Source: Prevotellaceae bacterium KH2P17 (GTDB lineage: Bacteria > Bacteroidota > Bacteroidia > Bacteroidales > Bacteroidaceae). Taken from it: 64,000 bases of DNA. This document shows positions 23,559 through 49,093 of this stretch, in pieces. Each line of letters opens with the position of its first letter. The stretch's first letter is position 1. Under the pieces are notes generated by a model. That model did not search any database, was not told where the DNA came from, and saw only the letters and a program-made list of their open reading frames with translations. The position numbers were made by a program, and so were the translations under genes. Location of the stretch: assembly GCA_900199655.1 (NCBI GenBank), contig FZRE01000003.1, positions 1-64,000 of the forward strand, read 5' to 3'.

Positions 23559-23568
23559 CACTTGAATT

Positions 23569-24415: not shown

Positions 24416-24475
24416 GGCCTGTCTATAGATTTAAAATAAAACCAAGAGTCTGCCATTCTTTAAATGGCAATGTTG

Positions 24476-25163: not shown

Positions 25164-25166
25164 AAG

Positions 25167-26294: not shown

Positions 26295-26302
26295 CCTGAG
26301 CC

Positions 26303-27130: not shown

Positions 27131-27174
27131 CGCCCGAGCCGGTCGGTGCCGTGGCGGGCTGAATTGTTTTCTGC

Positions 27175-27199
27175 GGGCTGACTGTCAGTCAGCCCTTTT
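27175..27199 (+). terminator. Terminator after the GH25 gene
   Basis: GGGCTGACT (27175-27183) pairs perfectly with AGTCAGCCC (27187-27195), loop GTC, followed by TTTT. Confidence 0.8.
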
Positions 27200-27743: not shown

Positions 27744-27751
27744 TATCTTTG
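27744..27751 (+). promoter_or_regulatory. -7 box TATCTTTG for the YwqK-like gene
   Basis: Consensus -7 box about 40 bases before the ATG at 27793; no clear TTG partner at 19-21 bases. Confidence 0.5.
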
Positions 27752-27792
27752 CAGGCGAAAACAACAAGCAACCTAAACAATTACAAATAGCA

Positions 27793-28302: not shown

Positions 28303-28325
28303 TATCATACAATTATCGGAACATG

Positions 28326-28357
28326 AAAAAAGGCGACTCGGGAGAGTCGCCTTTTTC
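28326..28357. terminator. Bidirectional terminator between the YwqK-like gene and exoA
   Basis: AGGCGACTC (28331-28339) pairs with GAGTCGCCT (28344-28352) around GGGA. An A-run lies before it and a T-run after it, so it can serve both convergent genes. Confidence 0.9.
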
Positions 28358-28375
28358 TGTTGGTGGGCCTGCAGG

Positions 28376-29122
28376 TCAGAGGTCGAGCTCTACAGGGCAG
28401 TGGTCGGAACCGAAGATTTCGGTGTGTATCTTGGCATCTTTCACTTGGCTGCGCAGCCGCTCGGAAGCCAGGAAATAGTCGATGCGCCACCCCGTGTTCT
28501 TCTCCCGGGCGTGGAAACGGTACGACCACCAGCTGTACGTTACCTGTTCTGGGTACAGCGTGCGGAATGTATCAATGAAGCCATCGGCCAGCAGCAGAGT
28601 CATCTTCTCGCGTTCCTCGTCCGTAAAGCCGGCGTTACGCCTGTTGGTCTTGGGGTTCTTGATGTCGATTTCCTCGTGGGCCACGTTCATGTCGCCGCAT
28701 ACAACGACGGGTTTCTTGGCGTCCAGCTGCTTGAGATAGGCACGGAAGTCGTCCTCCCACTTCATGCGGTAGTCCAGTCGGCGCAGTTCGTCCTGCGAGT
28801 TGGGGGTGTAGACTGTTACGAGGTAGAAGTCTGCCGTTTCGAGGGTGATGACCCGGCCTTCGTGGTCGTGCTCGTCGATGCCCATGCCGTAGCTCACGCT
28901 GAGCGGCCGGTGGCGGGTGTAGATGGCCGTACCGGAGTAGCCTTTCTTGTCGGCATAGTTCCAGAAAGACTCGTAGCCGTCGAACTGCAGGTCGAGTTGA
29001 CCGGCCTGCATCTTGGTTTCCTGCAGGCAGAAGAAGTCAGCATCAAGGGCTTTGAAGTTGTCTTCAAAGCCCTTGTTCACGCAGGCACGTAGTCCGTTTA
29101 CGTTCCAGGAAATAAGTTTCAT
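28376..29122 (-). CDS. xth: Exodeoxyribonuclease III / AP endonuclease
   Basis: A 248-residue enzyme of the ExoIII family that incises DNA at abasic sites and degrades 3' ends. The catalytic motifs are all present: [17 protein letters not shown] (metal Glu), the VYTPNS strand, [25 protein letters not shown] and [10 protein letters not shown] (general base His). Length is normal. It follows the lipoprotein gene by 2 bases and ends at a bidirectional terminator. Confidence 0.95.
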
Positions 29123-29124
29123 GC

Positions 29125-29745
29125 TTAGATCTTCATTTTTGATGTGAGCAGAATCTGGGGACTGGTAGGCAGACTTACGGGCACATCGTCGATGGTCAGC
29201 TCGGCTACTGTCAGCAGAATGAGCGTCTTGTTCTCTGCCTTGCGGAAGATACCGTAGGTGTAGTCAATGCGCTGATAGGGTACAAAAGTAACCTTAACCT
29301 TAACGGTTTTGCCGCCTGATACAACGCTCAGTTCCAATGGCCGTCCCTCTGTATAGAGGCTGATGGCCGTCTCGTTCATGCCGTAGTAGCCGTAACTAAT
29401 CTTGAGCTTGGTGCTTCCGAGGGCCTTGAGCGCCTCTCCAACGGCCTTGACATTGCTGTCGGTGCTCTTGTTTAAGAAGAAGGCAATGTTGCTCAGGGGG
29501 AAGTTACTGACGGTGATAATGGAATCGGCCGACCAATTTACGTTGTTGATGGAGTCGTGCTCGGTAAGAGAAACTGCTGCAACGGAAGCACCCGTGTAGT
29601 TACCCTGCATGCTCAGCATGGCTTGCTGTATCTGTTCGTTGGTGTAACCGTTGTCGTCATCGTCGCTGTCAAGACACGACGAAAGTGTGAAGGCTGCCGT
29701 AATGAGGCAGGCCAACATCAGGATTTGATTGCTTAGTCTTTTCAT
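29125..29745 (-). CDS. Lipoprotein, DUF4840-like
   Basis: A 206-residue protein with a lipoprotein signal ([20 protein letters not shown], lipobox SSC) followed by LDSDDDDN, the acidic stretch typical of surface-exposed lipoproteins in this phylum. The body, with an N-terminal MQGNYTG motif and a run of beta strands, resembles DUF4840 proteins, but I cannot verify the family. An ATG two codons upstream (29751) is an equal alternative start. It is in a unit with exoA, 55 bases after folE. Confidence 0.65.
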
Positions 29746-29806
29746 AATCATCTTCTTTAAATAATATGTAAACGTAAAAGATGCCGGAATCTTGCATCCT
29801 TTTAAG

Positions 29807-30400
29807 TTAAATTCGCTTGGATTCTCCGCGCAGGAGGTTCATGAACTCCTCGCGGGTCTTGGCCTGGTTGAAGGCTCCGCAGAAGTCGCTCGTGGTGGTG
29901 ATGGCGTTCTGCTTCTCTACACCGCGCATCTGCATGCACATGTGCTTGGCCTCTATGACTACCATCACGCCCTGTGGTTTCAGTGTCTCGTTGATGCAGT
30001 CCTTTATCTGTTGGGTGAGCCTTTCCTGTACCTGGAGGCGGTGACTGAAGATGTCGACCACGCGGGCAATCTTGCTCAGCCCGGTTATATATCCGTTGGG
30101 GATGTAGGCCACGTGTGCCTTGCCGTAGAAAGGGAGCATGTGGTGCTCGCACAAAGAGAAGAAGTCGATGTCTTTGACGATAACCATCTGGTTGTATTTC
30201 TCTTCGAACAGTGCGTCGGTAAGTACCTTGTGCGCGTCCTGTGTGTATCCTCTCGTGAGTATCTGCATGGCCTTTGCCACCCGCACGGGCGTTTTCTGCA
30301 GGCCGTCGCGGGTTGGGTCTTCGCCCAAAAGTTCCAGTACGGCCCTGTAGTGGGATGCGAGTTCGTCGAGTCCCTCACGTAATTCAGTTTCCGGATTCAT
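29807..30400 (-). CDS. folE: GTP cyclohydrolase I
   Basis: FolE opens GTP to 7,8-dihydroneopterin triphosphate, the first step of folate synthesis. The 197-residue protein shows the family core: [20 protein letters not shown], the zinc and active-site segment [40 protein letters not shown] and the second zinc-site HMCMQMRGV. It follows the SPOR protein gene by 1 base. The folK gene of the same pathway lies at 55561. Confidence 0.97.
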
Positions 30401-30401
30401 A

Positions 30402-31097
30402 TCAATATTGTACGGTTATTTTGCCCTTCACGATGGTTGCTGCACGGTAGCCCATGGCCCGAACCTGCCGGAGCATGTTCTGGGCTTCCTCATAGCTGCG
30501 GTAGTTTCCTACGCGGCAAATCCATCGGGGAGAGTAGAAGTGCACGTAGACGGGCTGGTCCGGGTATTTTACCTTGATGCTGTTGCCTATCTGCTCGGCA
30601 CGTTGCCTGTCGGCTCTGGAGTTTCCTCCGGCGTATGCTTGTACGCGATAGCCGGTTACCTTGTAGCTCTTGCGCATCACCTTCTTGCGCAAGTCCACGG
30701 TAGGTATGTCCATTTCGCTATCTTCGTTCTTTTCGTTCTTCTTTGTGGTTGGCACGTTGAGCCTGGCAGCCTCGCCTCTCTTGTCGGCATTTTCCTTGAG
30801 AACGGGCTGCTCCTTCTTGGCCGAATCCTTGGCTGCCTTGTGCGTGCCGAGCGGATAGGGCTGCGTTTCTTTTTCGCTGGTTTTCTGCTGGTAAGTCTTT
30901 GTATCCTTGAGTGGCTTCTCGTCCTTTTGCGGTGTTGTATTGCTGCCGTTGACCAAATCGTCGATTTCTTTGCTCTGCTTGACGGTTACCGAAGCCTGTC
31001 CCTGCTTCTTCTGTTGCAGGTGTTCGAGGTAAGTCTGTGCGCTGGCAGCTGACACAGAGCAAAGGGTGATAAACAGGAAAATGACGAATCTCTTCAT
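30402..31097 (-). CDS. SPOR domain protein, exported
   Basis: A 231-residue protein with a signal peptide ([20 protein letters not shown]), a long charged Lys/Gln/Glu-rich linker (about 25-150) and a C-terminal SPOR domain (about 152-231). The SPOR domain has [36 protein letters not shown] and [13 protein letters not shown] domains bind denuded peptidoglycan at division sites. It has no transmembrane anchor, so it is probably soluble in the periplasm. It lies between tpiA and folE on the same strand. Confidence 0.88.
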
Positions 31098-31177
31098 GTG
31101 ATTGTTGATTTTAGTTGATGGTGAATGGCCGGCAGTGGCCGTATTGCCGTGCTGCCAGCCATGTACCTTGGGCCTGA

Positions 31178-31939
31178 TTACTTCTTCCAGGCGTCGATGA
31201 TGCCCTTGAAGTCGGCTGCTTTGAGCGAAGCGCCGCCAATGAGGCCACCGTCGATGTTGGGTTTTGAGAAGAGCTCGGGTGCGTTGGAAGCCTTGCAGCT
31301 GCCACCATAGAGGATGGAAGTTTCCTCTGCCACGGCCTCTCCATACTTCTGGGCAACGATAGAGCGGATGTAAGCAAGCATCTCCTCGGCCTGGTCGGAG
31401 GTTGCGGTTTTGCCCGTTCCGATGGCCCAGATGGGTTCATAAGCCAGGATGATGTTCTTCCACTCGTCGGCAGTCAGGTTGAATACCGAGCCTTCCAGCT
31501 CTGCCTTTACAACCTCGTTCTGCCTGTTGGCTTCACGCTCTTCTAAAGTCTCGCCGCAGCAGAAGATAACTTTCAGGCCGTTCTGCAGTGCCAGGAGAAC
31601 CTTTTCCTTGAGGATTTCGGGTGTCTCTGCGTAGTATTGGCGACGCTCGGAGTGGCCGAGGATAACGTACTGAGCACCGGTAGACTTCACCATCTCGGCC
31701 GAAACCTCGCCCGTGTAGGCACCTTTAGCCTTGTCGGCGCAGTTCTCGGCGCCCAGTCCTACTACGCTTGCATCCAATACCTGGGCAACACTTGCCAGGT
31801 GGATGAATGGCGTGCAGACTACTACATCGCAGTTGGGCTTCTCTGCCTTCAGTGACTCGTTAATCTCCTTGGCCAGAGTCACGCCGTCCTGCAGGTTCAT
31901 GTTCATTTTCCAGTTGCCTGCAACAATTTTCTTTCTCAT
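31178..31939 (-). CDS. tpiA: Triosephosphate isomerase
   Basis: TpiA interconverts dihydroxyacetone phosphate and glyceraldehyde-3-phosphate. The 253-residue barrel shows AGNWKMN (catalytic Lys), [12 protein letters not shown] (catalytic His), [14 protein letters not shown] (catalytic Glu) and the phosphate loop [10 protein letters not shown] and GGLIGGASL. Its first 80 bases are also read in another frame as the end of the upstream DoxX/MauE-like gene. Identification is firm. Confidence 0.97.
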
Positions 31940-33251
31940 TTTCTTTTTCTTTTTTAAAAGTTGGTATATCTCTTTTTATTCTTTGTTCCTTGGCCCTTAC
32001 CCACTTGCTCCAAGACCACAACCGGTCAGCGAGAGTGAGCAGAATAAGCGGCAGGATGAACCAGAGGAATATCTTGGTAATCTTGCCTGCCATGCTGTTG
32101 GCCGGCATCCGGCCGATACTGAGCTCGGCGAGCGGGGCTGTGAGTTCCTCCGTCTGCGGCAGTTCGTTGTGGCTCCATTTGTTGATGACGGTCCCGTTCT
32201 TCAGCAACACCAGCCCCGGATTGCTCCTGACGATGGTCTTGAGCGTTGTTTCGTCGGTGGTGCAGAAAGGATATTCGGCCCCGGTAATGTCTTCCCAGTG
32301 GCTGATAGCCTGCTCGTTGCTGGCCGTGAGACAGTAGAACGGCACGTTGTAGGCCTGCGCGTACTCGTAAATCTGGTCTATATCGCCGAAGTTAGTCTCG
32401 TTGGCAAGCTCCAGATGAGGCGCTATGAGCAGGAAGGTGTAGCCCTTGTCGGTGAGCACCTGCTGCGTGATGTCCTCTCCGCCGGCCGTCTGTATGGAGA
32501 AGTCGTGTATGGGCGGAACGTATCCGTCGCGTGTCTGCACCGTCTTGCTGTCCACGAATTGCCAGGTAGAGTCGGGATAATTGTCGAGCGAGAATTCCTT
32601 TTTCACGCCGTTCTTCTGCAGGATGAAGGTCGTTTCAAACTGCGGTGCCTGTGCTCCCGGCGGCATTTCCATGCCCTTGAGAATGTTGGCGCCGACGTGA
32701 TAGGGCCTGAAGTCGAACCACGGCAGCCTGTAAATGCTCACGGCGCTGGTAGCCAGAATGTAGACAATCGTGAAGTTTATCACTATCCACTGGTTGGATT
32801 TGGAGATGAACCTCACCATCCGCAGCGGATAGATGGCCACTACCACGGCGCACGCCAGCAGCACAATGTTCTTGCCGAAGGTTTCGGCATTGGTGAGCTT
32901 GACGGCATCTCCGAAGCATCCACAGTCCTCTATAGGGTTGGCAACCACGAGCCAGAGGCTGATGAGCGTCATGACCAGCATGAATATCAGCACCAGCCGG
33001 GAATTGCGCCGGCGACAGATGGCGAACAGCATGAAGATGCCCAGCGAGAATTCCAGTGCCGAGAGGCCTACCGATGTGCCGAGAGTAACCCAGTCGGGCA
33101 CATATCCTTGCAGCGACAGTGCTTCGAGATAGTCCTGTATCTTGTACTGGGTGCCCAGCGGGTCAACGGCCTTGACATAGCCCGAGAAGATGAAGGTGAC
33201 CGCCAGAATCAGCCTGCACAGGTTGGTGAAGAATTTCTTGATGCTGTCCAC
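31860..33251 (-). CDS. DoxX/MauE-like membrane protein with thioredoxin-like C-terminal domain
   Basis: A 463-residue protein. Residues about 1-170 form a four-helix DoxX/MauE-type membrane domain with a conserved Cys pair in [13 protein letters not shown] fifth helix leads to a periplasmic region of which about 255-385 looks like a thioredoxin fold ([38 protein letters not shown]) without the CxxC. A final transmembrane helix is near 400-420. In Bacteroidota this matches the family often named after BT_3928, commonly next to tpiA and a DUF1599 gene, as here. The last 26 residues overlap tpiA out of frame and look non-homologous, perhaps from a one-base change in an A-run. Function is unknown; a disulfide-related role is a guess. 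Confidence 0.8.
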
Positions 33252-33256
33252 AAGTC

Positions 33257-33814
33257 TTATTTTGTCTGGCTCTCCTCATCCAGTTTGATGACGCCGAACA
33301 CTGCATAGTTGATGATATCCATGTAGTTGGCGTCGATGCCTTCGGAGACCAGCGTCTGTCCCTGCAGGTCCTCTATCTCTTTGATGCGCTGTATTTTGGT
33401 CAGAATGAAGTCCGTATAGCTGCTCACCCGCATCGAGCGCCACGCCTCGTCGTAGTCGTGGTTCTTGCGGAGCATCAGCTCCAGCGCCTCCGTGGCATGC
33501 CTGTCGTACAGCTTCATGGCTTCGGCAGGCGTCATGTCTACAGTGTCAACATAGCCGTTCTCCGTCTGGATGAGCCCCACGATGCCGTAGTTAATGAGCC
33601 CCACGAACTCCGGACGGATGCCTTCGCCCACCAGCGACTCCTTTTTTATTTCCAGAGAGCGTATGCGCTTGGCCTTGATAAAAAGCTGGTCGGTGAGCGA
33701 CGACGGGCGCATTATGCGCCACGAAGCTCCGTAGTCGTGCAGTTTCTGCTCGAAGAGCGTGCGGCATTCGTGCATCACATCCCTGAACTGCTGTTCTGTA
33801 TTGTCCTTTGCCAT
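33257..33814 (-). CDS. DUF1599 family protein
   Basis: A 185-residue cytoplasmic protein made of two similar halves, each with a pattern like LFEQKLHDYGASWRIMRPSS and LMLRKNHDYDEAWRSMRVSS. This duplicated DYxxxWR motif defines DUF1599, a family linked by annotation to nucleotide-modification-associated domains but without a proven role. The ATG at 33814 is preferred over 33826 because the latter lies inside the -7 box. It heads the operon leading to tpiA, with a predicted leader of only a few bases. Confidence 0.88.
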   Translation of the reverse strand: MAKDNTEQQFRDVMHECRTLFEQKLHDYGASWRIMRPSSLTDQLFIKAKRIRSLEIKKESLVGEGIRPEFVGLINYGIVGLIQTENGYVDTVDMTPAEAMKLYDRHATEALELMLRKNHDYDEAWRSMRVSSYTDFILTKIQRIKEIEDLQGQTLVSEGIDANYMDIINYAVFGVIKLDEESQTK

Positions 33815-33823
33815 AACTGGGTG

Positions 33824-33854
33824 CAAATTTACAGATTAATCGCGAGATAGCCAA
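33824..33854 (-). promoter_or_regulatory. DUF1599-tpiA operon promoter
   Basis: On the minus strand, TTG (33854-33852) and TAAATTTG (33831-33824) are 20 bases apart. The ATG at 33814 is 10 bases from the -7 box, so the leader is very short. Confidence 0.75.
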
Positions 33855-33896
33855 AAAGTAGTGCGATTAGGCCTCCGGCTTTATGGTTTTTTTATA

Positions 33897-34304
33897 TTAG
33901 TCTTCCTGCTGCCGTTTATGGATAACCCTTACGGTGCCGCAGAGGGCATCGTACCGGATTTGGAGCGAGTCGCGCCTGATGCCGATGAAATTGCGTTCCC
34001 TGATGGTTCGCGCTTCGTTAAACTGCCGGATGGCAACCTGCAGGGCCGAGTCGGTGCGGGCGATGTCGGCCTGCGTCAGTTTAAGCGATGCCTCCTGCCA
34101 CAGCGTGAGTGCCCTTTTGCGGGCCTTGACGGCCTGCGGAAACTGCCGGCGCAGCGAGGTGATGGAGTCCAGGACAAGCTGATACTGCCCCTGCTCGTAC
34201 AGTGTTTCTATCTCCGCCATCAGCGGTTCGGCCTTTTCATCGGCCGTCTGCTCGCAGGCGGTAAGCGTTACGAGCAGCAACAGAAGTAACAAACAATTCT
34301 TCAT
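33897..34304 (-). CDS. Small helical lipoprotein
   Basis: A 135-residue protein with a strong lipoprotein signal (MKNCLLLLLLLVTLTACEQT, Cys17). A helical body has a TPR-like first pair (AEIETLYEQGQYQLVLDSIT) and a second basic helical half. No characterised family is recognised. The start at 34304 is set by the signal peptide and by the -7 box at 34320-34313, which excludes the ATG at 34337. Confidence 0.7.
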   Translation of the reverse strand: MKNCLLLLLLLVTLTACEQTADEKAEPLMAEIETLYEQGQYQLVLDSITSLRRQFPQAVKARKRALTLWQEASLKLTQADIARTDSALQVAIRQFNEARTIRERNFIGIRRDSLQIRYDALCGTVRVIHKRQQED

Positions 34305-34312
34305 ACTGCGCA

Positions 34313-34320
34313 CAAATTTA
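34313..34320 (-). promoter_or_regulatory. -7 box TAAATTTG for the small lipoprotein gene
   Basis: Minus-strand consensus -7 box 9 bases before the ATG at 34304, again implying a very short leader. No clear TTG partner. Confidence 0.5.
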
Positions 34321-34362
34321 ATAAAAAATCGGGTCATAAAGCGTTATCTGAGGTTAAATTTG

Positions 34363-34370
34363 TATCTTTG
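34363..34370 (+). promoter_or_regulatory. -7 box TATCTTTG for the CCA-enzyme gene
   Basis: Consensus -7 box 20 bases before the ATG at 34390; no clear TTG partner. Confidence 0.55.
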
Positions 34371-34389
34371 CACCCTAAAAGCATAACAG

Positions 34390-35826
34390 ATGAGACATCT
34401 CTCCAATGCCGATTTGGCACAACTACTTGATAAAGACATCTTCCATAAAATCTCTTTGGCAGCCGACAGTCTCCACCTTGAATGTTACGTGGTGGGCGGC
34501 TATGTGCGCGATTTGTTTCTCGAACGCCCGTCCAACGACATCGACGTTGTGGTCGTTGGAAGCGGCATCCAGGTAGCCGACGCGCTGAAGAAGCTGCTCG
34601 GCCGCAAGGCCCATATCTCCGTTTTTCGCAGCTTCGGCACTGCCCAGGTGAAGTACAAGGATACCGAGGTGGAGTTTGTGGGGGCCCGTAAGGAGAGCTA
34701 CGACCACGACTCACGCAAGCCGCACGTGGAAGACGGCACGCTGGAAGACGACCAGAACCGCCGCGACTTCACCATCAACGCCATGGCGGTGTGCCTCAAT
34801 GCCGACCGCTTTGGCGAACTCGTAGACCCTTTCGACGGCCTCTACGACTTGGAAGACGGCATTATCCGCACGCCGCTCGACCCCGACATCACTTTTTCCG
34901 ACGACCCTTTGCGCATGTTGCGGTGCGTAAGATTTGCCGCGCAGTTGAATTTTTTCATCGATGATGAGACCTTCGAAGCGCTCTCTCGCAATGCCTCGCG
35001 AATCGAGATTATCAGTGGCGAGCGAATAGCTGATGAACTGAACAAAATCATGATGACTCGCACGCCCAGCAAGGGCTTTGTAGATTTGCACCGCTGTGGG
35101 CTCCTTCAGCTGCTCATCCCCGAACTTTCAGCACTCGATATCGTGGAGACCAAGAACGGCCGGGCACATAAAAATAATTTCTACCACACGCTCGAAGTGC
35201 TCGACAACGTATGCCGCAGCACCGATAACCTGTGGCTGCGGTGGGCTGCCTTGCTGCATGACGTGGGCAAAACCCGTACCAAACGCTGGGAACCGGGCGT
35301 GGGCTGGACTTTCCACAACCACAACTACGTGGGCTGCAAGATGGTTCCGGAGATTTTCCGACGGCTCAAACAGCCCATGGATGGCAAGATGAAGTATGTC
35401 CAGAAGATGGTAGACCTGCACATGCGACCCATAGCAATAGCCGACGAGGAGGTGACCGACAGTGCCGTGCGCCGGCTGATGAACGACGCGGGCGACGATA
35501 TAGGCGACTTGATGACGCTCTGCGAGGCCGACATTACGAGCAAGAACCAGCAGCGCAAGCAGCGTTTCCTGGACAACTTCCGCGTGGTTCGCGAGAAACT
35601 GAAGGACCTGGAGGAGCGCGACTACAAGCGATTGTTGCAGCCATGTATCAACGGCAACGAGATTATGGAGCTGTTCCACCTCAAGCCCAGTCGCGAGGTG
35701 GGCGAGTTGAAAAAATGCCTCAAGGAGGCCGTACTCGACAACCGCGTGCCCAACGAGCGCGAACCGCTCATGCAGCTGCTCATGGAGCAGGCCCGCAAAA
35801 TGGGCCTGGAGCCGGCTGGCCGATAG
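34390..35826 (+). CDS. CCA tRNA nucleotidyltransferase with HD domain
   Basis: A 478-residue class II nucleotidyltransferase. The N-terminal head has YVVGGYVRDLFL and the catalytic NDIDVVVVG (Asp-x-Asp), then QNRRDFTINAMAV and the neck motif DPLRMLRCVRFAAQL. From about residue 250 there is an HD phosphohydrolase-type domain (ALLHDVGKTRTKR). It adds or repairs the 3' CCA of tRNAs, which fits the tRNA-Pro gene in this window lacking encoded CCA. Poly(A) polymerase is a close relative, but the HD-containing layout is usual for the CCA enzyme in this phylum. Monocistronic. Confidence 0.92.
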   Translation: MRHLSNADLAQLLDKDIFHKISLAADSLHLECYVVGGYVRDLFLERPSNDIDVVVVGSGIQVADALKKLLGRKAHISVFRSFGTAQVKYKDTEVEFVGARKESYDHDSRKPHVEDGTLEDDQNRRDFTINAMAVCLNADRFGELVDPFDGLYDLEDGIIRTPLDPDITFSDDPLRMLRCVRFAAQLNFFIDDETFEALSRNASRIEIISGERIADELNKIMMTRTPSKGFVDLHRCGLLQLLIPELSALDIVETKNGRAHKNNFYHTLEVLDNVCRSTDNLWLRWAALLHDVGKTRTKRWEPGVGWTFHNHNYVGCKMVPEIFRRLKQPMDGKMKYVQKMVDLHMRPIAIADEEVTDSAVRRLMNDAGDDIGDLMTLCEADITSKNQQRKQRFLDNFRVVREKLKDLEERDYKRLLQPCINGNEIMELFHLKPSREVGELKKCLKEAVLDNRVPNEREPLMQLLMEQARKMGLEPAGR

Positions 35827-36053
35827 CTTCTGTTGCTTCTCTTTTTCCTCTTTCTTCCTTTTAATAGCTTCTCCCGACTGTAGTGGTTGGGGGAGTAGGT
35901 CTTCTTGTATCTTCTTTTGCGTTACCTCTTATATAATATGTAAAGCAACGGTTAGCAATGAGCAGTCGCGCGCGTTGCTGCGTTTCTTTCCCTTGGACCG
36001 GCGAGAGTAGGGGATATGACACCTTCAGCAGTTCTGTTATAGGCTGCTAATTA
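35827..36053. other. Intergenic, nothing recognised
   Basis: Pyrimidine-rich stretch after the CCA-enzyme gene, with a loose CTCCC/GGGAG hairpin near 35871-35897 that might terminate transcription. No gene. Confidence 0.4.
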
Positions 36054-36196
36054 ATCATCCCCTCCTCCGCCTCCCCTTTCCAAGGGAAGGTTACCGGTTT
36101 GACTTGTTGCAATACTCTAACTGACTGTATTTTGCCATCAATAGCCGTGCAGCAATGTTTCCTCCCCTTGGAAAGGGGAGGTTAGGAGGGGATGAT
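36054..36196 (-). repeat. Solitary ~143-bp G/C-hairpin-ended element
   Basis: Same family as the array at 13802-14294 but inverted. Left end ATCATCCCCTCCTCCGCCTC and right end GAGGTTAGGAGGGGATGAT; each end folds on CCTCCCCTT and AAGGGGAGG. The interior on the minus strand shares GGCTATTG and CAAGTCAAACC with array copy 1. No coding content. Confidence 0.8.
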
Positions 36197-36294
36197 CTGT
36201 CAGCAGGTTTATGAAACGATAAGTACAAGGAGAGGGAAACTAAAGTTATTGAGTGGCGGAGAGCGCGATTTTATAGTCTTGGTGGTGCCGTTCG

Positions 36295-36366
36295 TGAACT
36301 TTCGACACTTGTCGCACGATCGTGCGACACCTGTCAAATAATCGTGCGACAAGTGTCGAAAGTTCA
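36295..36366 (+). repeat. 72-bp triple-dyad repeat, copy 3 (most symmetric)
   Basis: Arms TGAACTTT and AAAGTTCA enclose dyads CGACACTTGTCG, CGACACCTGTCA and CGACAAGTGTCG. Spacers are the perfect palindrome CACGATCGTG and the variant AATAATCGTG. Folded about its centre, nearly all positions pair, and the arms extend through TTCG/CGAA (36291-36370). The right flank CGAAGCTATGC sets the orientation. It lies between the CCA-enzyme gene and the efflux operon. Confidence 0.92.
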
Positions 36367-36606
36367 CGAAGCTATGCTTTGAGCCTTCAAATTCATTGTT
36401 CCGGCACCTCGGAATGCGCACGGCCGGAATGACGTTTCGGCCTGCATCGCGTAGTTGAAACGGTATTTGAAACCTCTCCCCCTTGCCAATCGGGAAGCAG
36501 GCCGAAAATGATATAAATGCCGTTCCTTCCTACCTGTTTTTAGGTATGTGCATCTAATAATTGTTAAAAACAAGCTCCCGTGCGTTCGCTATTATCAGAT
36601 AATTTG
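36367..36606. other. Intergenic upstream of the efflux operon
   Basis: No gene. It begins with the outer arm of repeat copy 3 and ends at the efflux promoter. No operator-like dyad stands out. Confidence 0.4.
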
Positions 36607-36614
36607 TAATTTTG
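36607..36614 (+). promoter_or_regulatory. -7 box TAATTTTG of the efflux operon
   Basis: Consensus -7 box about 95 bases before the adaptor ATG at 36709, giving a leader near 88 bases. No TTG at the usual distance. Confidence 0.5.
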
Positions 36615-36708
36615 TGGCTTGAAAACTGTTTGAAGCATTTGAGTTTTTATATTGATATCATTTAAGGATGACGAAATTCGTAAACATTAATATTAAATAA
36701 GTATAGGT

Positions 36709-37905
36709 ATGAAAAGTAAGAGTTATTTGTTCGTGGCGGCCCTTTCTGCATTGCTTGTCGCTTGCGGAGGCAACGACCAGATGAAGATGGGTGACAACGA
36801 GTTTGCCGTTCGTACGGTGAGTTCCGCCAGTACTGCATTGCAGACAACCTATCCTGCTACCATCAAGGGCATTCAGGATGTGGAGGTGCGCCCCAAGGTG
36901 TCGGGATTCATCACCAAAGTGTATGTACACGAGGGCCAGACGGTAAGCGCCGGCCAGGTGTTGTTTACTATTGACAGCGAGACCTACCGTGCATCAGTGC
37001 GCCAGGCCCAGGCCGCCCTCAACACTGCTCGGGTGCAGATGAACACTGCCCGGATGACTTACGAGAACAATAAGAAACTTTTTGAGAAGAACGTCATAGG
37101 CCAGTACGAGCTCAGTACGGCCCAGAACTCCTACGCCTCGGCACAGGCAGCTGTGTCGCAGGCACGGGCAGCGCTGGCTTCGGCTAACGAGACGCTGAGC
37201 TGGTGCACCGTCAAGAGCCCGGCATCGGGCGTGGTAGGCAGTCTGCCTTTCAAGGAGGGCGCACTGGTGAGCGCATCGAGCATGGAGCCGCTCACCACCG
37301 TTTCAAATATCAGTACAGTGGAGGCGTTCTTCTCCATGTCAGAGAGCGAGATACTGGAGCTTACCAAATCGGCCGGTAACGTGAGCTCCGCTATCAACTC
37401 CATTCCCGCAGTAAAGCTGCAGCTGGCCGACGGCACGGTGTACAACCATCCCGGAAAGGTAGTCAAGATGAGCGGCGTGATAGATGCAGCCACCGGCTCC
37501 GTGTCGCTCATAGCCCATTTTGCTAACCCCGAGAAGCTGCTCAAGAGCGGCGGCGCAGGGCAGATTATCATCCCCAGAGCCAACAACAACGCCATCCTGG
37601 TACCGCAGGAGGCAACCTCGGAGGTGCAGGATAAGATTTTCGTTTACGTGGTGGGCAAGGACAACAAGGTGAAATATACCGAGATAACCGTGAACCCGCA
37701 GAACGACGGAAAGAACTACATCGTGACCAGCGGACTGAAAGTTGGCGACCGATATGTGAGCAAGGGCATTACCAAACTTACCGACGGCATGGAAATAAAG
37801 CCCATAACGGAGGCGCAGTACCAGCAGAAGATAGACAACGCTGCCAAGCTCTCCGAGCAGCAAGGCACCGCCAAGGGATTCATAGATGCAATGAAGAGCA
37901 AATAA
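36709..37905 (+). CDS. RND efflux periplasmic adaptor (AcrA/MexA family)
   Basis: A 398-residue membrane fusion protein with a lipoprotein signal (LLVACGGND, Cys16). In order come the barrel-sandwich half-motif VEVRPKVSGFITKVYVHEGQ, an alpha-hairpin (about 100-175, RQAQAALNTARVQMNTARMT), the second lipoyl half (VKSPASGVVGSLPFKEGALV) and the beta-barrel and membrane-proximal domains. It links the RND pump to the TolC-like channel. It is first of three genes that together form a complete drug or solute efflux system. The substrate is unknown. Confidence 0.95.
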   Translation: MKSKSYLFVAALSALLVACGGNDQMKMGDNEFAVRTVSSASTALQTTYPATIKGIQDVEVRPKVSGFITKVYVHEGQTVSAGQVLFTIDSETYRASVRQAQAALNTARVQMNTARMTYENNKKLFEKNVIGQYELSTAQNSYASAQAAVSQARAALASANETLSWCTVKSPASGVVGSLPFKEGALVSASSMEPLTTVSNISTVEAFFSMSESEILELTKSAGNVSSAINSIPAVKLQLADGTVYNHPGKVVKMSGVIDAATGSVSLIAHFANPEKLLKSGGAGQIIIPRANNNAILVPQEATSEVQDKIFVYVVGKDNKVKYTEITVNPQNDGKNYIVTSGLKVGDRYVSKGITKLTDGMEIKPITEAQYQQKIDNAAKLSEQQGTAKGFIDAMKSK

Positions 37906-37998
37906 GGATGCGGCATCAAGGTGCCCGGAAACGGCCTTCGGGCTGTTTGACGGGCACAGCGAATGATGCCGGCTACCAGGATACATAAAACCAGAAAT

Positions 37999-40900
37999 AT
38001 GTCATTTACAAACTTTATCAAACGTCCGGTACTCTCGACGGTGGTGTCCATCTTCTTCGTCCTGCTGGGTACAATCGGACTGATATCACTGCCTATCGAG
38101 CAGTACCCGGATATCGCGCCGCCTACTATCGTGGTTTTCACCTCCTATCAGGGCGCTGATGCCAACACGGTGTTGAACTCCGTCATCACTCCTCTTGAGG
38201 AGAGCATCAACGGAGTGGAGAATATGACCTACATGACCTCGCAGGCTACCAACGACGGTTCGGCCTCCATTACGGTCTACTTTAAGCAAGGTTCCGATGC
38301 CGACATGGCTGCCGTGAACGTGCAGAACCGCGTTTCGCAGGCCCAGGCACTGCTGCCGGCCGAAGTAACTCGTGTGGGCGTAACGGTGATGAAGCGCCAG
38401 ACGTCGAACGTTATCATGTACTCGCTTACGACCGAGGACGGCCGTTACAACAACGAGTTTGTGACCAACTACAACAATATCAACATTGTACCGCTGCTCA
38501 AGCGTATCAACGGCGTGGGCGACGTGCAGAGCCCGTCTACCGCCAGCTACTCCATGCGCATCTGGCTCAAGCCCGACAAGATGAAGCAGTACGGCCTCGT
38601 GCCTACCGACATCAGCGGAGCGCTGGCCGAGCAGAACATAGAGGCTGCGCCGGGTAAGTTCGGCGAGCAGAGCGACATGGCCTATGAGTACGTGCTGCGT
38701 TATAAAGGCAGGCTCAAGACTGCAACGGAGTACGAGAACATTATACTGACAAGTTCCACCACGGGGCAGACCCTCAAGCTGAAGGATGTGGCCAAGGTAG
38801 AGCTCGGTGTGCTGCAGTACAACGTGAACCTGATTAACAACGGCCAGCCTGCCGTAATGGGTATGGTGCAGCAGATAGCCGGCTCAAACGCCACGCAGAT
38901 TGCCACCGACGTGAAGGCAGCCCTGAAGGAAGCGTCAAAGAACTTCCCGCCTGGACTGGAATATACCATCGAGCAGGATACTACCGAGTTCCTCTTCGCC
39001 TCTATCGAAGAAGTAGTAATGACGCTGTTCATCACCCTGCTGCTGGTGTTCATTGTGGTTTACATCTTCCTGCAGGACTTCCGCAGCACGCTCATTCCTA
39101 TGATTGCCGTGCCAGTAGCTTTGATAGGTACGTTCTTCTTCTTGTGGGTATTCGGCTTCTCCATCAACTTGCTCACGCTTTCGGCATTGCTGCTGGCCAT
39201 CGCCATTGTAGTAGATGACGCCATCGTGGTGGTTGAGGCCGTGCACGCCAAGCTCGACCAGGGCTACCAGAGCTCGCTTACGGCATCTATCGATGCCATG
39301 AACGAAATCAGTTCCGCTATCATTTCCATTACGCTGGTGATGTCGGCCGTGTTCGTGCCGGTATCGTTCATCGGCGGTACTTCGGGTACTTTCTACCGTG
39401 AGTTCGGTGTAACGATGGCCGTGTCTATCGTTATCTCGGCCATCAACGCCTTGACCTTGTCGCCTGCCCTCTGTGCTATCTTCCTGAAACCGCACAAAGA
39501 GGAGGAGACCGAAAAGAACAAGACGTTCATCGGCCGCTTCCATGAGAACTTCAACAAGGTATTCGAGAAGACGACCACTAAATATAAGAAAGGTGTAGAA
39601 CACGTTATCAACCACCGCATCATCACCGCTGCCATCGTGGCCGTAGGCATCATCGCGCTGGTTATAACCATGGGAACAACCAAGACCGGACTGGTTCCCG
39701 ACGAGGATACCGGTACGCTCTTTGTAACCATCTCGGCCGCTCCCGGTACCAGCCAGGCACGTACGTCGGAAATAGTGAAGGAGGTTGACAGGATGCTTGC
39801 AGGCAACCCGGCCATTCAACGGCGTGAGGCTGTGATGGGTTATAACTTCATCGCCGGCCAGGGTTCTGACCAGGCAACCTTCATTATCAAGCTAAAGCCG
39901 TTCGAGGAGCGCGGAGGCGGTTTCTTTACCCGCATCAAGAACGCCATCACCGAGGCCGACCCTATGGCCCTGTTCGTGAACCCCAAGGAGGCAAACTCCG
40001 TGCTGGGCATGATTTACAAGCAAACAGCAAGCATCAAGGACGCACAGATTCTGGCCTTTGGTCCGCCAATGATACCGGGCTTCTCGGCACAGAGCGGTCT
40101 GACGCTCTCGCTGCAGGACAAGACTGGTGGCGACCTGAACAAATTCTTCCAGGTAACACAAAGCTTCCTGAAGGAACTCAACAAGCGTGAAGAAGTGCAG
40201 ACCGCCATGACTTCCTACAACCCAAGTTACCCGCAGTATATGGTCGACGTGGATGTTTCCAAGACCAAGCAGGCCGGCATCTCGCCGTCAACTGTACTGG
40301 CAACGCTGCAGGGCTACTACGGCGGACTGTACGCTTCGAACTTCAATGCCTATGGTAAGCTCTTCCGTGTGATGATACAAGGCGACGTGGCCAGCCGCAT
40401 GCGCCCCGACGGATTGAGCAATATCTATGTGCGTACGGCATCGGGACAGATGTCTCCTGTAAGTGAGTTCGTGAGCTTGCGGCGTGTATATGGCCCGTCA
40501 AACGTGACACGTTTCAACCTCTTTACTTCCATCAGCGTGAGCGTTACGCCTGCAACGGGCGTCTCGTCCGGCCAGGCCATGGAAGCTGTCAAGGAAGTTG
40601 CAGCCCAGTCGTTGCCCGATGGCTACGGCTACGAGTATTCAGGTTTGAGCCGTTCAGAGGCCGAGAGCAGCAACTCAACGGCACTTATATTCGTGCTGTG
40701 TCTGGTCTTCGTGTACCTGATACTGTCGGCCCAGTACGAGAGTTATATCCTCCCGCTGGCTGTAATACTCTCAATACCGTTCGGACTTGCCGGCGCTTTC
40801 ATCTTTACTCAGCTGTTCGGCCATTCCAATGACATCTACATGCAGATTTCGCTCATTATGCTTATCGGTCTGCTTGCCAAGAACGCCATCCTTATTGTGC

Positions 40901-41286
40901 AGTTCGCACTGGAGCGCAGGCAAACAGGTATGGCCATCCGCTATTCAGCCATCTTGGGAGCAGGCGCCCGTCTGCGTCCTATTCTGATGACTTCTCTGGC
41001 CATGATTATCGGTCTGTTGCCGCTGATGTTCGCATCCGGCGTAGGCAAGAACGGTAACCAGACCCTCGGCGCAGCCGCAGTAGGCGGTATGCTCATCGGT
41101 ACTTTGTGCCAGATATTTGTGGTTCCGGCCCTGTTCGCCGTCTTCCAGTGGCTGCAGGAGCGCATCAAGCCCATCGTATTCGAGGACGAAGTAAACGAAG
41201 AGGCGGCCATAGAGCTCCAGCAGTATGCACACACCAAGAAGCCATCTACTTACGTAAATCAATTCGACGAAGATGAAAATAAATAA
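37999..41286 (+). CDS. RND efflux permease (AcrB/MexB, HAE1 family)
   Basis: A 1095-residue proton-driven inner-membrane pump with the usual duplicated layout: 12 transmembrane helices and two large periplasmic loops. The start MSFTNFIKRPVLSTVVSIFF and the line SLPIEQYPDIAPPTIVV are characteristic. The proton-relay pair is in helix 4 (AIAIVVDDAIVVVEAV, Asp-Asp), and the second half has GLLAKNAILIVQFAL. The ATG at 37999 is chosen; the 12-codon upstream extension is unlike the family. It overlaps the channel gene by 14 bases. Confidence 0.96.
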   Translation: MSFTNFIKRPVLSTVVSIFFVLLGTIGLISLPIEQYPDIAPPTIVVFTSYQGADANTVLNSVITPLEESINGVENMTYMTSQATNDGSASITVYFKQGSDADMAAVNVQNRVSQAQALLPAEVTRVGVTVMKRQTSNVIMYSLTTEDGRYNNEFVTNYNNINIVPLLKRINGVGDVQSPSTASYSMRIWLKPDKMKQYGLVPTDISGALAEQNIEAAPGKFGEQSDMAYEYVLRYKGRLKTATEYENIILTSSTTGQTLKLKDVAKVELGVLQYNVNLINNGQPAVMGMVQQIAGSNATQIATDVKAALKEASKNFPPGLEYTIEQDTTEFLFASIEEVVMTLFITLLLVFIVVYIFLQDFRSTLIPMIAVPVALIGTFFFLWVFGFSINLLTLSALLLAIAIVVDDAIVVVEAVHAKLDQGYQSSLTASIDAMNEISSAIISITLVMSAVFVPVSFIGGTSGTFYREFGVTMAVSIVISAINALTLSPALCAIFLKPHKEEETEKNKTFIGRFHENFNKVFEKTTTKYKKGVEHVINHRIITAAIVAVGIIALVITMGTTKTGLVPDEDTGTLFVTISAAPGTSQARTSEIVKEVDRMLAGNPAIQRREAVMGYNFIAGQGSDQATFIIKLKPFEERGGGFFTRIKNAITEADPMALFVNPKEANSVLGMIYKQTASIKDAQILAFGPPMIPGFSAQSGLTLSLQDKTGGDLNKFFQVTQSFLKELNKREEVQTAMTSYNPSYPQYMVDVDVSKTKQAGISPSTVLATLQGYYGGLYASNFNAYGKLFRVMIQGDVASRMRPDGLSNIYVRTASGQMSPVSEFVSLRRVYGPSNVTRFNLFTSISVSVTPATGVSSGQAMEAVKEVAAQSLPDGYGYEYSGLSRSEAESSNSTALIFVLCLVFVYLILSAQYESYILPLAVILSIPFGLAGAFIFTQLFGHSNDIYMQISLIMLIGLLAKNAILIVQFALERRQTGMAIRYSAILGAGARLRPILMTSLAMIIGLLPLMFASGVGKNGNQTLGAAAVGGMLIGTLCQIFVVPALFAVFQWLQERIKPIVFEDEVNEEAAIELQQYAHTKKPSTYVNQFDEDENK

Positions 41287-42667
41287 ATCAATCCTGTTCC
41301 TGGGCCTTGCAGCGACGGTGTTCACCAGCTGCAAGAGCCTGTACGGAAAGTACGAACGCCCTGCTGTGAACACGGCGGGACTGGTGCGCGACTCGGCCTC
41401 TGTTACCGATACGCTTGCCGTTACCGATACTACGAGCTTTGCGAACATACCCTGGCGCAGCGTGTTTACCGACCCGCAGCTGCAGCAAATCATACAGAAA
41501 GGGCTCGACAACAATAAAGATTTGCTCAACGCAGCGCTCAACGTGAAGATGGCCGAAGCCCAGCTCAAGGCCGCCAAGCTCTCGTTCCTGCCCTCGTTTA
41601 CCTTCACTCCGCAGGGCACCATCGCCTCTTGGGACGGCAACAAGGCCACCAAGACCTACAGCCTGCCCATCAACGCGAGCTGGAGTGTTGACCTCTTCGG
41701 CAACCTGTTGAGCCAGAAGCGTGCCGCGCAGATGGCCCTGCTGCAGAGCAAAGACTACCAGGTGGCCGTACAGACCAATGTAGTAGCCAACGTGGCCAAC
41801 CTCTACTACACGCTCCTGATGCTCGACAAGCAGCTGGAACTGGTAACTGACATGGAGAAACTGACCAAGGACACCTGGGACATCATGAAGCTGCAGAAGG
41901 ATGCAGTCATCGGAGTACGCTCCACGGCCGTGCAGGGCGCCGAGTCAAACTACTACTCGGTACTCACCCAGAAGACCGACATCAAGCGCCAGATACGCGA
42001 AAGCGAGAACGCGCTCAGCCTGCTCGTTGGACAGCAGGCACAGACCATAGCCCGCGGCAGGATAGAAGACCAGAACCTGCCCACCAGCTTCTCCACCGGC
42101 GTAGGCCTCCAGCTGCTCAAGAACCGGGCCGACGTGCACGCTGCCGAGATGGCTCTTGCCGAGTGCTTCTACGGTGTCGAGACGGCTCGCAGCCGCTTCT
42201 ATCCCTCCATCACCATCAGTGGCAGCGGCGCTTTCACCAACAGTGGCGGCGGCATGATTACCAATCCGGGCAAGTGGTTGCTCAGTGCAGTGGGCGCGCT
42301 CACGCAGCCCATCTTCATGCGGGGGCAGCTCATAGCCGGCCTGCGCGTAGCCGAAGCCCAGTATCAGCAGGCTTACAACACGTGGCAGAACACCATTCTG
42401 TCGGCCGGAAACGAAGTGAGCAACGCCCTCGTGCTGTACAACTCCTCGGCCGAGAAGAGTGCCATAGAGGCCAAGCAGATAGAAGTGCTCAGGCAGAACG
42501 TGGAGGACACCAAGCTCCTCATGGCCAGTGCAGGCAGCACCTACCTTGAAGTAATCACGGCGCAGAGCAGCCTGCTGAACACAGAACTGTCCAAGGTGGC
42601 CGACGACTTCAGCAAGATGCAGGCCGTGGTCAACCTGTATTATGCCCTCGGAGGCGGTGCAAAGTAG
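41273..42667 (+). CDS. TolC/OprM-family outer membrane efflux lipoprotein
   Basis: A 464-residue protein with a lipoprotein signal (LAATVFTSCKS, Cys20). Two OEP repeats follow, with the family segments FANIPWRSVFTDPQLQQII and LLNAALNVKMAEAQLKAAK. It forms the trimeric outer-membrane channel of the tripartite efflux system. It overlaps the pump gene by 14 bases and is followed by lpxA after 23 bases. Confidence 0.94.
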   Translation: MKINKSILFLGLAATVFTSCKSLYGKYERPAVNTAGLVRDSASVTDTLAVTDTTSFANIPWRSVFTDPQLQQIIQKGLDNNKDLLNAALNVKMAEAQLKAAKLSFLPSFTFTPQGTIASWDGNKATKTYSLPINASWSVDLFGNLLSQKRAAQMALLQSKDYQVAVQTNVVANVANLYYTLLMLDKQLELVTDMEKLTKDTWDIMKLQKDAVIGVRSTAVQGAESNYYSVLTQKTDIKRQIRESENALSLLVGQQAQTIARGRIEDQNLPTSFSTGVGLQLLKNRADVHAAEMALAECFYGVETARSRFYPSITISGSGAFTNSGGGMITNPGKWLLSAVGALTQPIFMRGQLIAGLRVAEAQYQQAYNTWQNTILSAGNEVSNALVLYNSSAEKSAIEAKQIEVLRQNVEDTKLLMASAGSTYLEVITAQSSLLNTELSKVADDFSKMQAVVNLYYALGGGAK

Positions 42668-42690
42668 TGTTGAACTTAAACAATAGAATT

Positions 42691-43473
42691 ATGGCAAGCC
42701 AAATAAGTGACAAGGCAGTGGTATCTCCTAACGCCAAGATAGGCAACAACTGCAAGATATTCCCCTTCGTGTATATCGAAGACGAGGTAGAGATAGGCGA
42801 CAACTGCATCATCTTTCCCTTCGTGAGCATCCTCAACGGAACCCGCATGGGCAGCGATAACAAGGTGCACCAGGGCACCGTTCTCGGCGCTCTTCCGCAG
42901 GACTTCAACTTTACGGGCGAAAAGTCGGAGCTCGTCATCGGCAACAACAACATCATTCGTGAGAACGTGGTGGTGAACCGCGCCACGCATGCAGGCGGGC
43001 AGACCGTTATCGGCAACGACAACTTCCTGATGGAGGGAGTCCACATCTCGCACGATACAAAGGTGGGCGACAACTGCGTTTTCGGCTACGGAACAAAGAT
43101 AGCAGGCGACTGCGAGATAGGCCACGGCGTCATCTTCAGTTCCTCCGTCATCGAGAATGCCAAGACCCGGGTGGGCAAAGGCGCAATGATACAGGCCGGA
43201 ACAACCTTCTCCAAGGATGTTCCTCCATACATTGTAGCCGGTGGAAAGCCCGTGGCCTACGCCGGTCCTAACAACACCATTATGACCACTATGGGTATAG
43301 AGGACAAGGTGCAGAAGCACGTTGCCAACGCCTACAGGCTGGTGTTCCACGGCCAGAACAGTGTTTTCGACGCCGTGCTGCAAATCAACGCCCAGGTGCC
43401 CGACAGTCCTGAAATTCGCGAAATAGTGAATTTCATCAAAGCAACCAAACTTGGAATTATCAGTAAAATGTAA
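42691..43473 (+). CDS. lpxA: Acyl-ACP--UDP-N-acetylglucosamine O-acyltransferase
   Basis: LpxA transfers a hydroxyacyl chain from ACP to UDP-GlcNAc, the first step of lipid A synthesis. The 260-residue protein is a left-handed beta helix of hexapeptide repeats (ISDKAVVSPNAKIGNNCKIF, then VEIGDNCIIFPFVSI). It has the catalytic-His region (HDTKVGDNCVFGYGTKIAGD) and a helical C-terminal domain (KVQKHVANAYRLVF). The ATG at 42691 matches the family start. It lies close behind the efflux operon and may share its transcript. Confidence 0.95.
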   Translation: MASQISDKAVVSPNAKIGNNCKIFPFVYIEDEVEIGDNCIIFPFVSILNGTRMGSDNKVHQGTVLGALPQDFNFTGEKSELVIGNNNIIRENVVVNRATHAGGQTVIGNDNFLMEGVHISHDTKVGDNCVFGYGTKIAGDCEIGHGVIFSSSVIENAKTRVGKGAMIQAGTTFSKDVPPYIVAGGKPVAYAGPNNTIMTTMGIEDKVQKHVANAYRLVFHGQNSVFDAVLQINAQVPDSPEIREIVNFIKATKLGIISKM

Positions 43474-43502
43474 TTCATACCTATACATTTTTACTTGTAC
43501 GA

Positions 43503-43538
43503 AGACAGGCTGGCCGAGAGGTCAGCCTGTCTTTTTGT
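43503..43538 (+). terminator. Terminator after lpxA
   Basis: AGACAGGCTG (43503-43512) pairs perfectly with CAGCCTGTCT (43523-43532), followed by TTTT. Confidence 0.9.
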
Positions 43539-43610
43539 TTTCCGCCGGGCCGGCGGGAGCCCGGACGGCTTCCCGGAAGCCATCACCCAACACCCCACAC
43601 CCCACCTTCG

Positions 43611-43682
43611 GGAACTTTTGACAGGTGTCGCACAATCGTGCGACAAGTGTCGAATTCATGTGCGACACTTGTCGAAAGTTCC
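43611..43682 (-). repeat. 72-bp triple-dyad repeat, copy 4
   Basis: Arms GGAACTTT and AAAGTTCC enclose dyads TGACAGGTGTCG, CGACAAGTGTCG and CGACACTTGTCG. Spacers are CACAATCGTG and the variant AATTCATGTG, here in the second position (first in copy 2). The left flank CTTCG and right flank TGCTTG are the reverse of the flanks of copies 1 and 6, so the copy is inverted. It lies between the lpxA terminator and the GH36 promoter. Confidence 0.9.
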
Positions 43683-43826
43683 TGCTTGTGCCTTTCAACA
43701 CCTTTTTGCCGCAACTTTTGCAACCCGAGAGCATGCCGGCCGGCATCGTTCTGCACAGTTTGCGCAGAGGCTTTGATACGTTTCTGCCCTTTCATGATAC
43801 AATTTTACACAATTAGCTGCTGCGAG

Positions 43827-43857
43827 TTGCGCGAACTGATAATTTTTTGTAGCTTTG
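43827..43857 (+). promoter_or_regulatory. GH36-GH31 operon promoter
   Basis: TTG at 43827-43829 and TAGCTTTG at 43850-43857 are 20 bases apart. The ATG is at 43884. Confidence 0.75.
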
Positions 43858-43883
43858 CAAGTAAATCCAACTACCACCTTGAA

Positions 43884-46070: not shown

Positions 46071-46085
46071 CCAATCCCGAAGGCT

Positions 46086-49070: not shown

Positions 49071-49093
49071 CATGCAACAAACAAAGTGTATGT

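Follow-up and report, generated by a model that had tools for sequence, protein, structure and literature searches.

A Dispersed Three-Dyad Cassette Centred on a Kilobase-Coherent 11-bp Composition Wave: A Possible Register Mark of DNA Wrapping in a Prevotellaceae Genome

Results

The Locus and the Cassette Family

The window is the whole stretch of 64,000 nucleotides that was analysed. It contains a long palindrome (copy 3 in Table 1), whose neighbours are a poly(A)-polymerase/tRNA-nucleotidyltransferase-type gene that ends at 35826 and a membrane-fusion efflux gene that starts at 36709. A sequence-only reading of the window had described the element as one near-perfect palindrome from end to end, and this description is borne out: 35 of 39 pairs match. 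The inverted-repeat search (I1) gives two arms of 39 nt, 36291-36329 and 36332-36370, which are 90% complementary and separated by 2 nt, with the four mismatched pairs all lying in the inner portion. For 36280-36380, the RNA fold has an energy of -61.2 kcal/mol, compared with a mean of -26.9 for shuffled sequences (z = -11.3), and none of 200 shuffles folds as well. The additional claim that the middle of each half is itself palindromic is true of the left half but not of the right, where AAATAATCGTGC (36336-36347) is non-palindromic; CACGATCGTG is located at 36315-36324. The core of copy 3 consists of ACTTTC, three dyads at 22-bp pitch, and GAAAGT. Its left flank matches the flank consensus TCCCGAAGCATAGCTTCAGCACC poorly. 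The Rfam matches in the window amount to one tRNA, with nothing at the element.

Table 1. Positions of the cassette copies, the parts of copy 3, and the composition wave in the window
Feature	Position	Strand	Basis
Dyad-symmetric composition wave, period 10.984 bp, genes and gaps	1..64000		Single sharp line
Copy 1 core	193..258		Fuzzy parse; centre 0.0 bp off wave axis
Copy 2 core	13627..13692		Fuzzy parse; centre -0.1 bp off wave axis
Copy 3, whole palindrome (element of the sequence-only reading)	36291..36370		Inverted repeat, 90% complementary; RNA fold z -11.3
Copy 3, 66-bp core cassette	36298..36363		Fuzzy three-dyad parse and strict genome pattern
Copy 3, left dyad GACACTTGTC	36304..36313		Sequence; little or no variation in the GACA/TGTC columns of 102 copies
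Copy 3, middle dyad GACACCTGTC	36326..36335		Sequence; column conservation in 102 copies
Copy 3, right dyad GACAAGTGTC	36348..36357		Sequence; column conservation in 102 copies
Copy 3, right outer 22-bp unit	36364..36386		Partial match to flank consensus TCCCGAAGCATAGCTTCAGCACC (199 ends)
Copy 4 core	43614..43679		Fuzzy parse; centre 1.2 bp off wave axis
Copy 5 core	50358..50423		Fuzzy parse; centre -0.8 bp off wave axis
Copy 6 core	58640..58705		Fuzzy parse; centre -0.7 bp off wave axis

Six related copies occur in the window, and the core of copy 4 is present in identical form at another locus. The strict family pattern, defined as CTTTYGACANNTGTC-N12-GACANNTGTC-N12-GACANNTGTC, is found 156 times in forward and 146 times in reverse orientation in the 3.3-Mb source genome, while the reversed control gives 0 matches. 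From the six related copies in the window and these 156 strict matches against none in the control, it follows that copy 3 is far beyond chance. The strict pattern is absent from 397 other sampled genomes of the same genus, and without CTTTY the pattern occurs at 159 places in the source genome.

From stretches around listed places, 102 copies were parsed, out of roughly 160-190 in the genome; the parse requires exact dyad spacing, so that copies with insertions or deletions are missed. Their common scaffold has a length of 66 bp and consists of ACTTTY, three GACANNTGTC dyads at 22-bp pitch, and RAAAGT. There is little or no variation in the GACA and TGTC columns, while the NN pairs differ between copies, as do parts of the spacers. 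Outside the scaffold, conservation declines outward by steps of 22 bp (199 ends); the first outer unit resembles TCCCGAAGCATAGCTTCAGCACC, and weaker echoes occur a further 22 and 44 bp out. Among the earlier proposals, separate use of the three dyads by a protein is the one that fits these data best, since the 22-bp spacing is exact in copies that differ at the NN pairs and in parts of their spacers, with the reservation that the parse itself imposes this spacing on the 102 copies.

The central bases of the dyads (columns 11-12, 33-34, and 55-56) are nearly always CY or RG in the source genome. Self-complementary centres are almost absent there (0 of 101 distinct cores at columns 33-34), and are preferred in other array-bearing genomes, e.g., CG, GC, AT, or TA. 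Two cassettes are adjoined by a second, inverted repeat family, CCTCCCCTT...AAGGGGAGG, at 13801-14295 and 36044-36206, of which the first includes a 176-bp tandem.

The Composition Wave

A dyad-symmetric wave in base composition with a period of about 10.985 bp crosses the sampled genome; it is coherent over kilobases and carried mostly by synonymous positions. This is the period of underwound DNA. In the window, the line at 10.984 bp has a summed power of 154.7, compared with a median of 3.4 and a 99th percentile of 13.5 in the scan, and of 32 bins of 2 kb, 29 have a phase within 60 degrees. In 26 of 26 other stretches over 6 kb from the same genome, all chosen around copies, the strongest line between 9.5 and 12.5 bp falls at 10.975-10.995 bp, with powers of 27-113. 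The phase coherence declines slowly, from 2.96 between neighbouring 550-bp segments to 1.66 at 2.2-3.3 kb, then to 0.85 at 4.4-6.6 kb and 0.22 at 8.8-13.2 kb.

The amplitude per base is largest at third codon positions (.046), followed by DNA outside long ORFs (.033), first codon positions (.020), and second codon positions (.014). Synonymous shuffling reduces the line in the window from 154.7 to a mean of 35.0, and codon shuffling reduces it to a mean of 14.8 (12 shuffles each).

When flanks are aligned on the elements (197 ends), the 11-bp wave keeps its phase relative to the element as far as 500 bp away, with a normalised power of 68 (GC) at 200-330 bp and 52 at 330-500 bp, where chance gives about 1. 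GC steps peak at the element axis and AA, TT, and TA steps half a period away from it, in both cases by about 20%; such antiphase is known from wrapped DNA. The element-locked amplitude per base drops from.0295 at 150-330 bp to.0114 at 4.5-6.5 kb, and then to about.001 at 9-13 kb, whereas the local power of the wave does not decrease with distance from the cassette. Since the locked part falls and the local power does not, the wave is genome-wide and slips out of phase with distance. That cassettes are the source of the wave is ruled out by this distance-independent power together with a masking control, in which the elements and 150 bp on each side were randomised and the line in the window was still 141.8.

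The Register of the Cassettes

The cassettes are centred on the axis about which the wave is symmetric, with a precision of about 1 bp. Here, the axis was estimated from the flanks alone, 150 to 1500 bp from each element. For 92 elements with enough flank, the centre lies within 1.0 bp of the predicted axis in 75 cases, within 1.5 bp in 86, and within 2 bp in 89. The mean offset is 0.04 bp and the Rayleigh R is 0.90, compared with 0.09 for random centres; Rayleigh probabilities treat the elements as independent. The offset of copy 3 is -0.1 bp, and those of the other five window copies are given in Table 1. The length of the cassette corresponds to 66/10.985 = 6.008 periods of the wave, which means that a copy keeps the register intact on both sides.

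For elements 3-8 kb apart, the spacings are in phase, with a mean cosine of 0.52 (n = 20); at larger distances this is no longer clear. When all pairs closer than 30 kb are included, the spacing test gives 0.221, which does not beat jittered positions (mean 0.202, largest 0.306).

Arrays, Wave, and Register in Other Genomes

In a scan of 84,980 species, with one genome per species, three GACANNTGTC dyads at 22-bp pitch were found in at least 49 stretches. The listed matches all come from records with Bacteroidota names, and consist of three to six dyads with genome-specific spacers. In an order-wide sample, GACANNTGTC arrays occur in the source genome only (1 of 392). One Pedobacter stretch (L142, 5649 and 6520) has two three-dyad arrays GACAATTGTC on either side of a small membrane-protein-like gene, and these arrays are operator-like rather than a dispersed repeat.

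To find arrays of any sequence, 48 stretches, mostly 20 kb long, were scanned for self-similarity over 44 bp; they come from 35 other genomes, of which 32 belong to the genus and three to the family. Lag 22 has 36 loci, lag 44 has 27, and lag 66 has 17, compared with at most 8 at all other lags from 11 to 70 and at most 4 when the lag is not divisible by 3. The lag-22 loci stem from 16 of the 35 related genomes; many are visibly palindromic with unrelated sequences, as in genomes G323 and G883, and some may be plain tandem repeats. In genomes G026 (L210, L211, L212) and G003 (L215), 22-bp arrays of TACA..CGTGTATAA-type palindromes are shared, the half-site again being TACA/TGTA-like, and in G273 (L203, 15619) the array AACTTTCGACCTAGGTCGCACG-ATCGTTTGACCTAGGTCGAAAG resembles the scaffold of the source genome, with GACCTAGGTC replacing GACANNTGTC.

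Within the genus, wave and register have a patchy distribution, and they occur without GACANNTGTC. In 20-kb pieces of Escherichia coli, lines reach 22.6, and at most 14.5 between 10.93 and 11.07 bp; because of the former value, a wave was counted as positive only above 25. One of the first 18 relatives sampled passes, G026, with 46.2 at 11.04 bp. Among 20 stretches of closer relatives, six pass (G316, two from G323, G883, G254, and G160), with powers up to 111.5. Among 30 loci of 6.2-6.3 kb around one gene, G323, G328, G170, G016, and G160 gave 50-102, followed by G316 with 19.5, the source genome with 19.0, and the other 23 at or below 15.4. Genome G016 has a strong line in its 6.3-kb locus and none in a separate 20-kb stretch.

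Two other species share the register with unrelated palindromes: in G323 and G883, 5 of 5 array centres lie within 0.7 bp of the axis. In G316, one weak palindrome lies 2.2 bp off the axis. Outside the group, the highest line between 10.93 and 11.07 bp was 17.2 in nine stretches from seven genomes with GACANNTGTC arrays, and in 40 loci of such genomes lines between 10.9 and 11.05 bp reached 20.6 at most; no clear register of the array centres was found there, with 8 of 37 centres within 1.5 bp and R = 0.28.

Two possible determinants of the wave could be rejected by these comparisons. In one orthologous gene, G323, G328, G170, and G016 agree with each other in phase, but their phase differs from that in the source genome and shifts along the gene, which refutes the idea that the phase is fixed by the protein sequence. 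Expansion of HU or HU-HIG genes as the cause is also rejected, since HU gene counts overlap between genomes with the wave (5-13) and without it (5-12), and HU-HIG counts do not separate the two groups either.

Discussion

A Possible Wrapping Code with Register Marks

Bacterial chromosomes are, to our knowledge, usually thought to be without regular, sequence-positioned chromatin. Our main reading, to which we give a probability of roughly 45%, is that the 66-bp three-dyad cassette is a register mark of a chromosome-wide DNA-wrapping code. In favour of it we count the sharp line in the window and in all 26 other stretches, its coherence over kilobases, the bias toward third codon positions and the weakening on synonymous shuffling, the centring of 86 of 92 elements, the 5 of 5 centres in G323 and G883, the antiphase of dinucleotide steps, the fading of the flanks by 22 bp, and the arrays in 16 of 35 relatives. 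Against it we count that the HU and HU-HIG gene counts are uninformative, that the power of the wave is independent of the distance to a cassette, that GACANNTGTC array-bearing genomes outside the group have neither a comparable wave nor a clear register, that G016 is inconsistent, that the palindrome in G316 is 2.2 bp off, and the outcome of the all-pairs spacing test.

The reader of the code is probably a nucleoid protein that would bind a dyad every two turns. To exemplify how this could work, consider an abundant protein that wraps or coats the DNA continuously and takes up one dyad for each 22 bp, or two helical turns. The wave would then be the weak genome-wide preference of this putative protein, and the cassettes would be its strongest sites, which may anchor the register or reset it against drift by insertions and deletions. 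The length of six turns points to a loss of those cassettes that broke the register. The most economical reading of the data is a wrapped or coated chromosome whose repeat is two turns.

This may be made more specific. It is quite conceivable, though short of an even chance, that in some members of this Bacteroidales genus the chromosome is a continuous wrapped lattice with inherited register, in which one protein dimer would occupy two turns (21.97 bp) and the cassettes would reset the phase. Such a lattice would carry its phase for kilobases through genes and impose it on codon choice, with cassettes an integer number of turns long, and these parts we hold just as tentatively. If true, it would be bacterial chromatin with sequence-encoded register.

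Alternative Readings

The alternative that survives best is that the cassette is a selfish palindromic satellite, i.e., a small MITE- or REP-like mobile repeat without function, whose enzyme favours one helical face of DNA that is already wrapped by something else, so that the register is a target preference. Cassette cores are indeed copied between loci. An identity of at least 95% is reached by 87 of the 5151 pairs of cores, where column shuffling gives 0.7 on average and 2 at most, and three pairs are identical; the 60-bp flanks of near-identical cores have a similarity of 0.369, compared with a background of 0.368. Near-identical cores at unrelated loci imply that cores move or are converted between loci, and this overturned a purely in-situ origin of the cassettes, which had formerly been favoured. 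Both orientations occur (52 of 102 copies are flipped), the family is restricted to the source genome among the 398 sampled in the genus, and the 102 parsed copies have inverted ends, ACTTTY/RAAAGT, as expected for a MITE and as dictated by the pattern. A satellite does, however, call for an extra assumption to account for the length of six periods and the centre exactly on the axis. The conservation of the flanks tapers in steps of 22 bp rather than ending at a sharp border. At boundaries 0-44, 100 elements gave no target duplication of at least 8 bp, and duplications shorter than that, by which such an element could still have moved, show only small excesses there. The search for a linked enzyme, which covered the Y1 family, found none. 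We therefore regard the satellite as unlikely, but as an alternative to be taken seriously. The earlier suggestion of a transposition-related role has accordingly fared unevenly: near-identical cores at unrelated loci speak for it, the lack of duplications of at least 8 bp and of a linked RAYT against it. A viral origin of the cassettes was dropped, since neither a search of viral contigs with the three-dyad pattern nor a search of phages for the element gave a match.

According to a second alternative, which we consider improbable, the wave is a passive record: a regular arrangement of the DNA biases mutation by helical face, and the cassettes are binding sites that happen to set this arrangement. 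It accounts for the wave being strongest where constraint is least, i.e., at third codon positions and in gaps, and for an amplitude that is constant along the DNA. The wave at first and second codon positions and the near-invariant GACA/TGTC scaffold in 102 copies point to constraint instead, and a regular arrangement is still required for the record to be made.

A third alternative, to which we give very little weight, is that the palindrome acts as a hairpin, cruciform, or RNA element, i.e., as a terminator, an mRNA end, or the structural switch that the sequence-only reading had in mind. What invites it is the strong RNA fold, together with the gene context, in which convergent gaps outnumber divergent ones: 35 elements lie in convergent, 31 in tandem, and 14 in divergent gaps with one ORF cut-off and 23, 19, and five with another, contexts that depend on a simple ORF caller. 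Eight copies lie wholly within ORFs of at least 180 amino acids, and 39 of 86 overlap ORFs of at least 90 amino acids, many of which are probably spurious. Compensatory change, proposed as a check of the hairpin, gave a modest surplus, with 54 double changes compared with 41.9 (SD 4.9) in shuffles. As RNA, the oriented strand has a slight folding advantage over its complement in 73 of 102 copies. Before the copies are oriented, pairing exceeds that of shuffles at column pairs 11-56 and 12-55 (z = 6.6 and 4.1), while central column pairs fall below shuffles, down to z = -8.4. This strong anti-pairing suggested selection against hairpins, but orienting the copies showed that much of it is explained by an asymmetric ancestor present in both orientations. 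In the oriented consensus, five central pairs are unpaired, and the orientation of the cassettes ignores the gene strand (18 same, 13 opposite); the long hairpin or cruciform with switch-like role, as a selected feature, is not supported. The terminator search gave no terminator-like match at the element, which together with the orientation speaks against an intrinsic terminator, and Rfam is likewise without a match. The weak compensatory change and the strand-independent orientation make a selected hairpin, switch, or terminator unlikely, and the hairpin as a selected object is supported weakly at best.

That the cassette is a REP/REPIN element mobilised by a RAYT (Y1 transposase) is the least plausible alternative, and it was rejected. 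The short palindromes in high copy number and the one gene with a Y1_Tnp match in the genome, with a cassette about 4.2 kb away, speak for it. Against it, the 2.2 kb examined around that gene, where a nearby contig end shortens one side, contain no copy, and of 13 other array-bearing genomes 11 gave no Y1_Tnp match and two gave one. This sole Y1 transposase-like gene encodes 153 amino acids and lies near the end of its contig (C23; L031, L051).

If the cassettes are register marks and a protein reads the wave, this would be a new chromatin system with its own code, in which codon choice is tied to the packaging of DNA, and a wrapping code would explain why 22-bp palindrome arrays of unrelated sequence recur in the group. 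Even if the wave is a mutational footprint only, it would be a base-resolution record of how the DNA lies in the living cell. In either case, the centre of a palindrome can be predicted to about one base from sequence that is hundreds of bases away.

Comparison with Known Systems

In the nucleosome positioning code of eukaryotes and archaea, AA/TT/TA and GC steps alternate in antiphase at the helical pitch. The same step antiphase is found here, but the register is kilobases long and marked by palindromes. CopY/BlaI-type TACANNTGTA operators and partition boxes have a 10-bp dyad with a 2-bp centre, helical spacing, and dimeric binding proteins. Unlike such arrays, the cassettes occur at about 160 sites per genome and are without a known cognate protein.

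REP, BIME, and REPIN elements with RAYTs are, in the accessible parts of the sources, likewise short intergenic palindromes with more than 100 copies that are often composite (PMC2817692, PMC3116915), and REPIN/RAYT repeat ends are there described as carrying a GTAG- or CGTC-type tag (PMC3733652). The cassettes differ from them by the absence of a RAYT link, by three dyads at a fixed 22-bp pitch, and by a centre that is locked to the wave. The BrickBuilt MITE of Porphyromonas gingivalis is also found in Bacteroidales, is intergenic, and has short repeat units and predicted long stem-loops; in the accessible text it has 23-nt tandem units, a leader, a tail, and IS5-like ends at 19 loci, and, unlike for the cassettes, palindromic dyads and register go unmentioned there (PMC4596501). 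As far as that text describes them, its unit and ends differ from those of the cassette, and identity with BrickBuilt was rejected.

Closest to the wave is the curvature periodicity of prokaryotic DNA at about 10-11 bp. Its preference for third codon positions is known (PMC3431218, PMC4132750), in some chromosomes the periodicity covers most of the length (PMC3431218), and the known signals extend over about 100 bp (PMC4132750), according to the accessible parts of these papers. The likeness lies in a period near 11 bp and in its strength at third codon positions. Set against the signals so described, the phase here holds over kilobases instead of about 100 bp and palindromes mark the axis, while PMC3431218, in its accessible parts, gives the prevalence of periodicity along the chromosome without a measure of phase. 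A text search of the literature for GACANNTGTC returned no paper, and in a literature search that covered few subscription journals, no description of the combination of wave and register was recognised. The single parts have known kin, and what we rate as new in kind is their combination, with palindromes placed on the axis of a wave that is coherent over kilobases.
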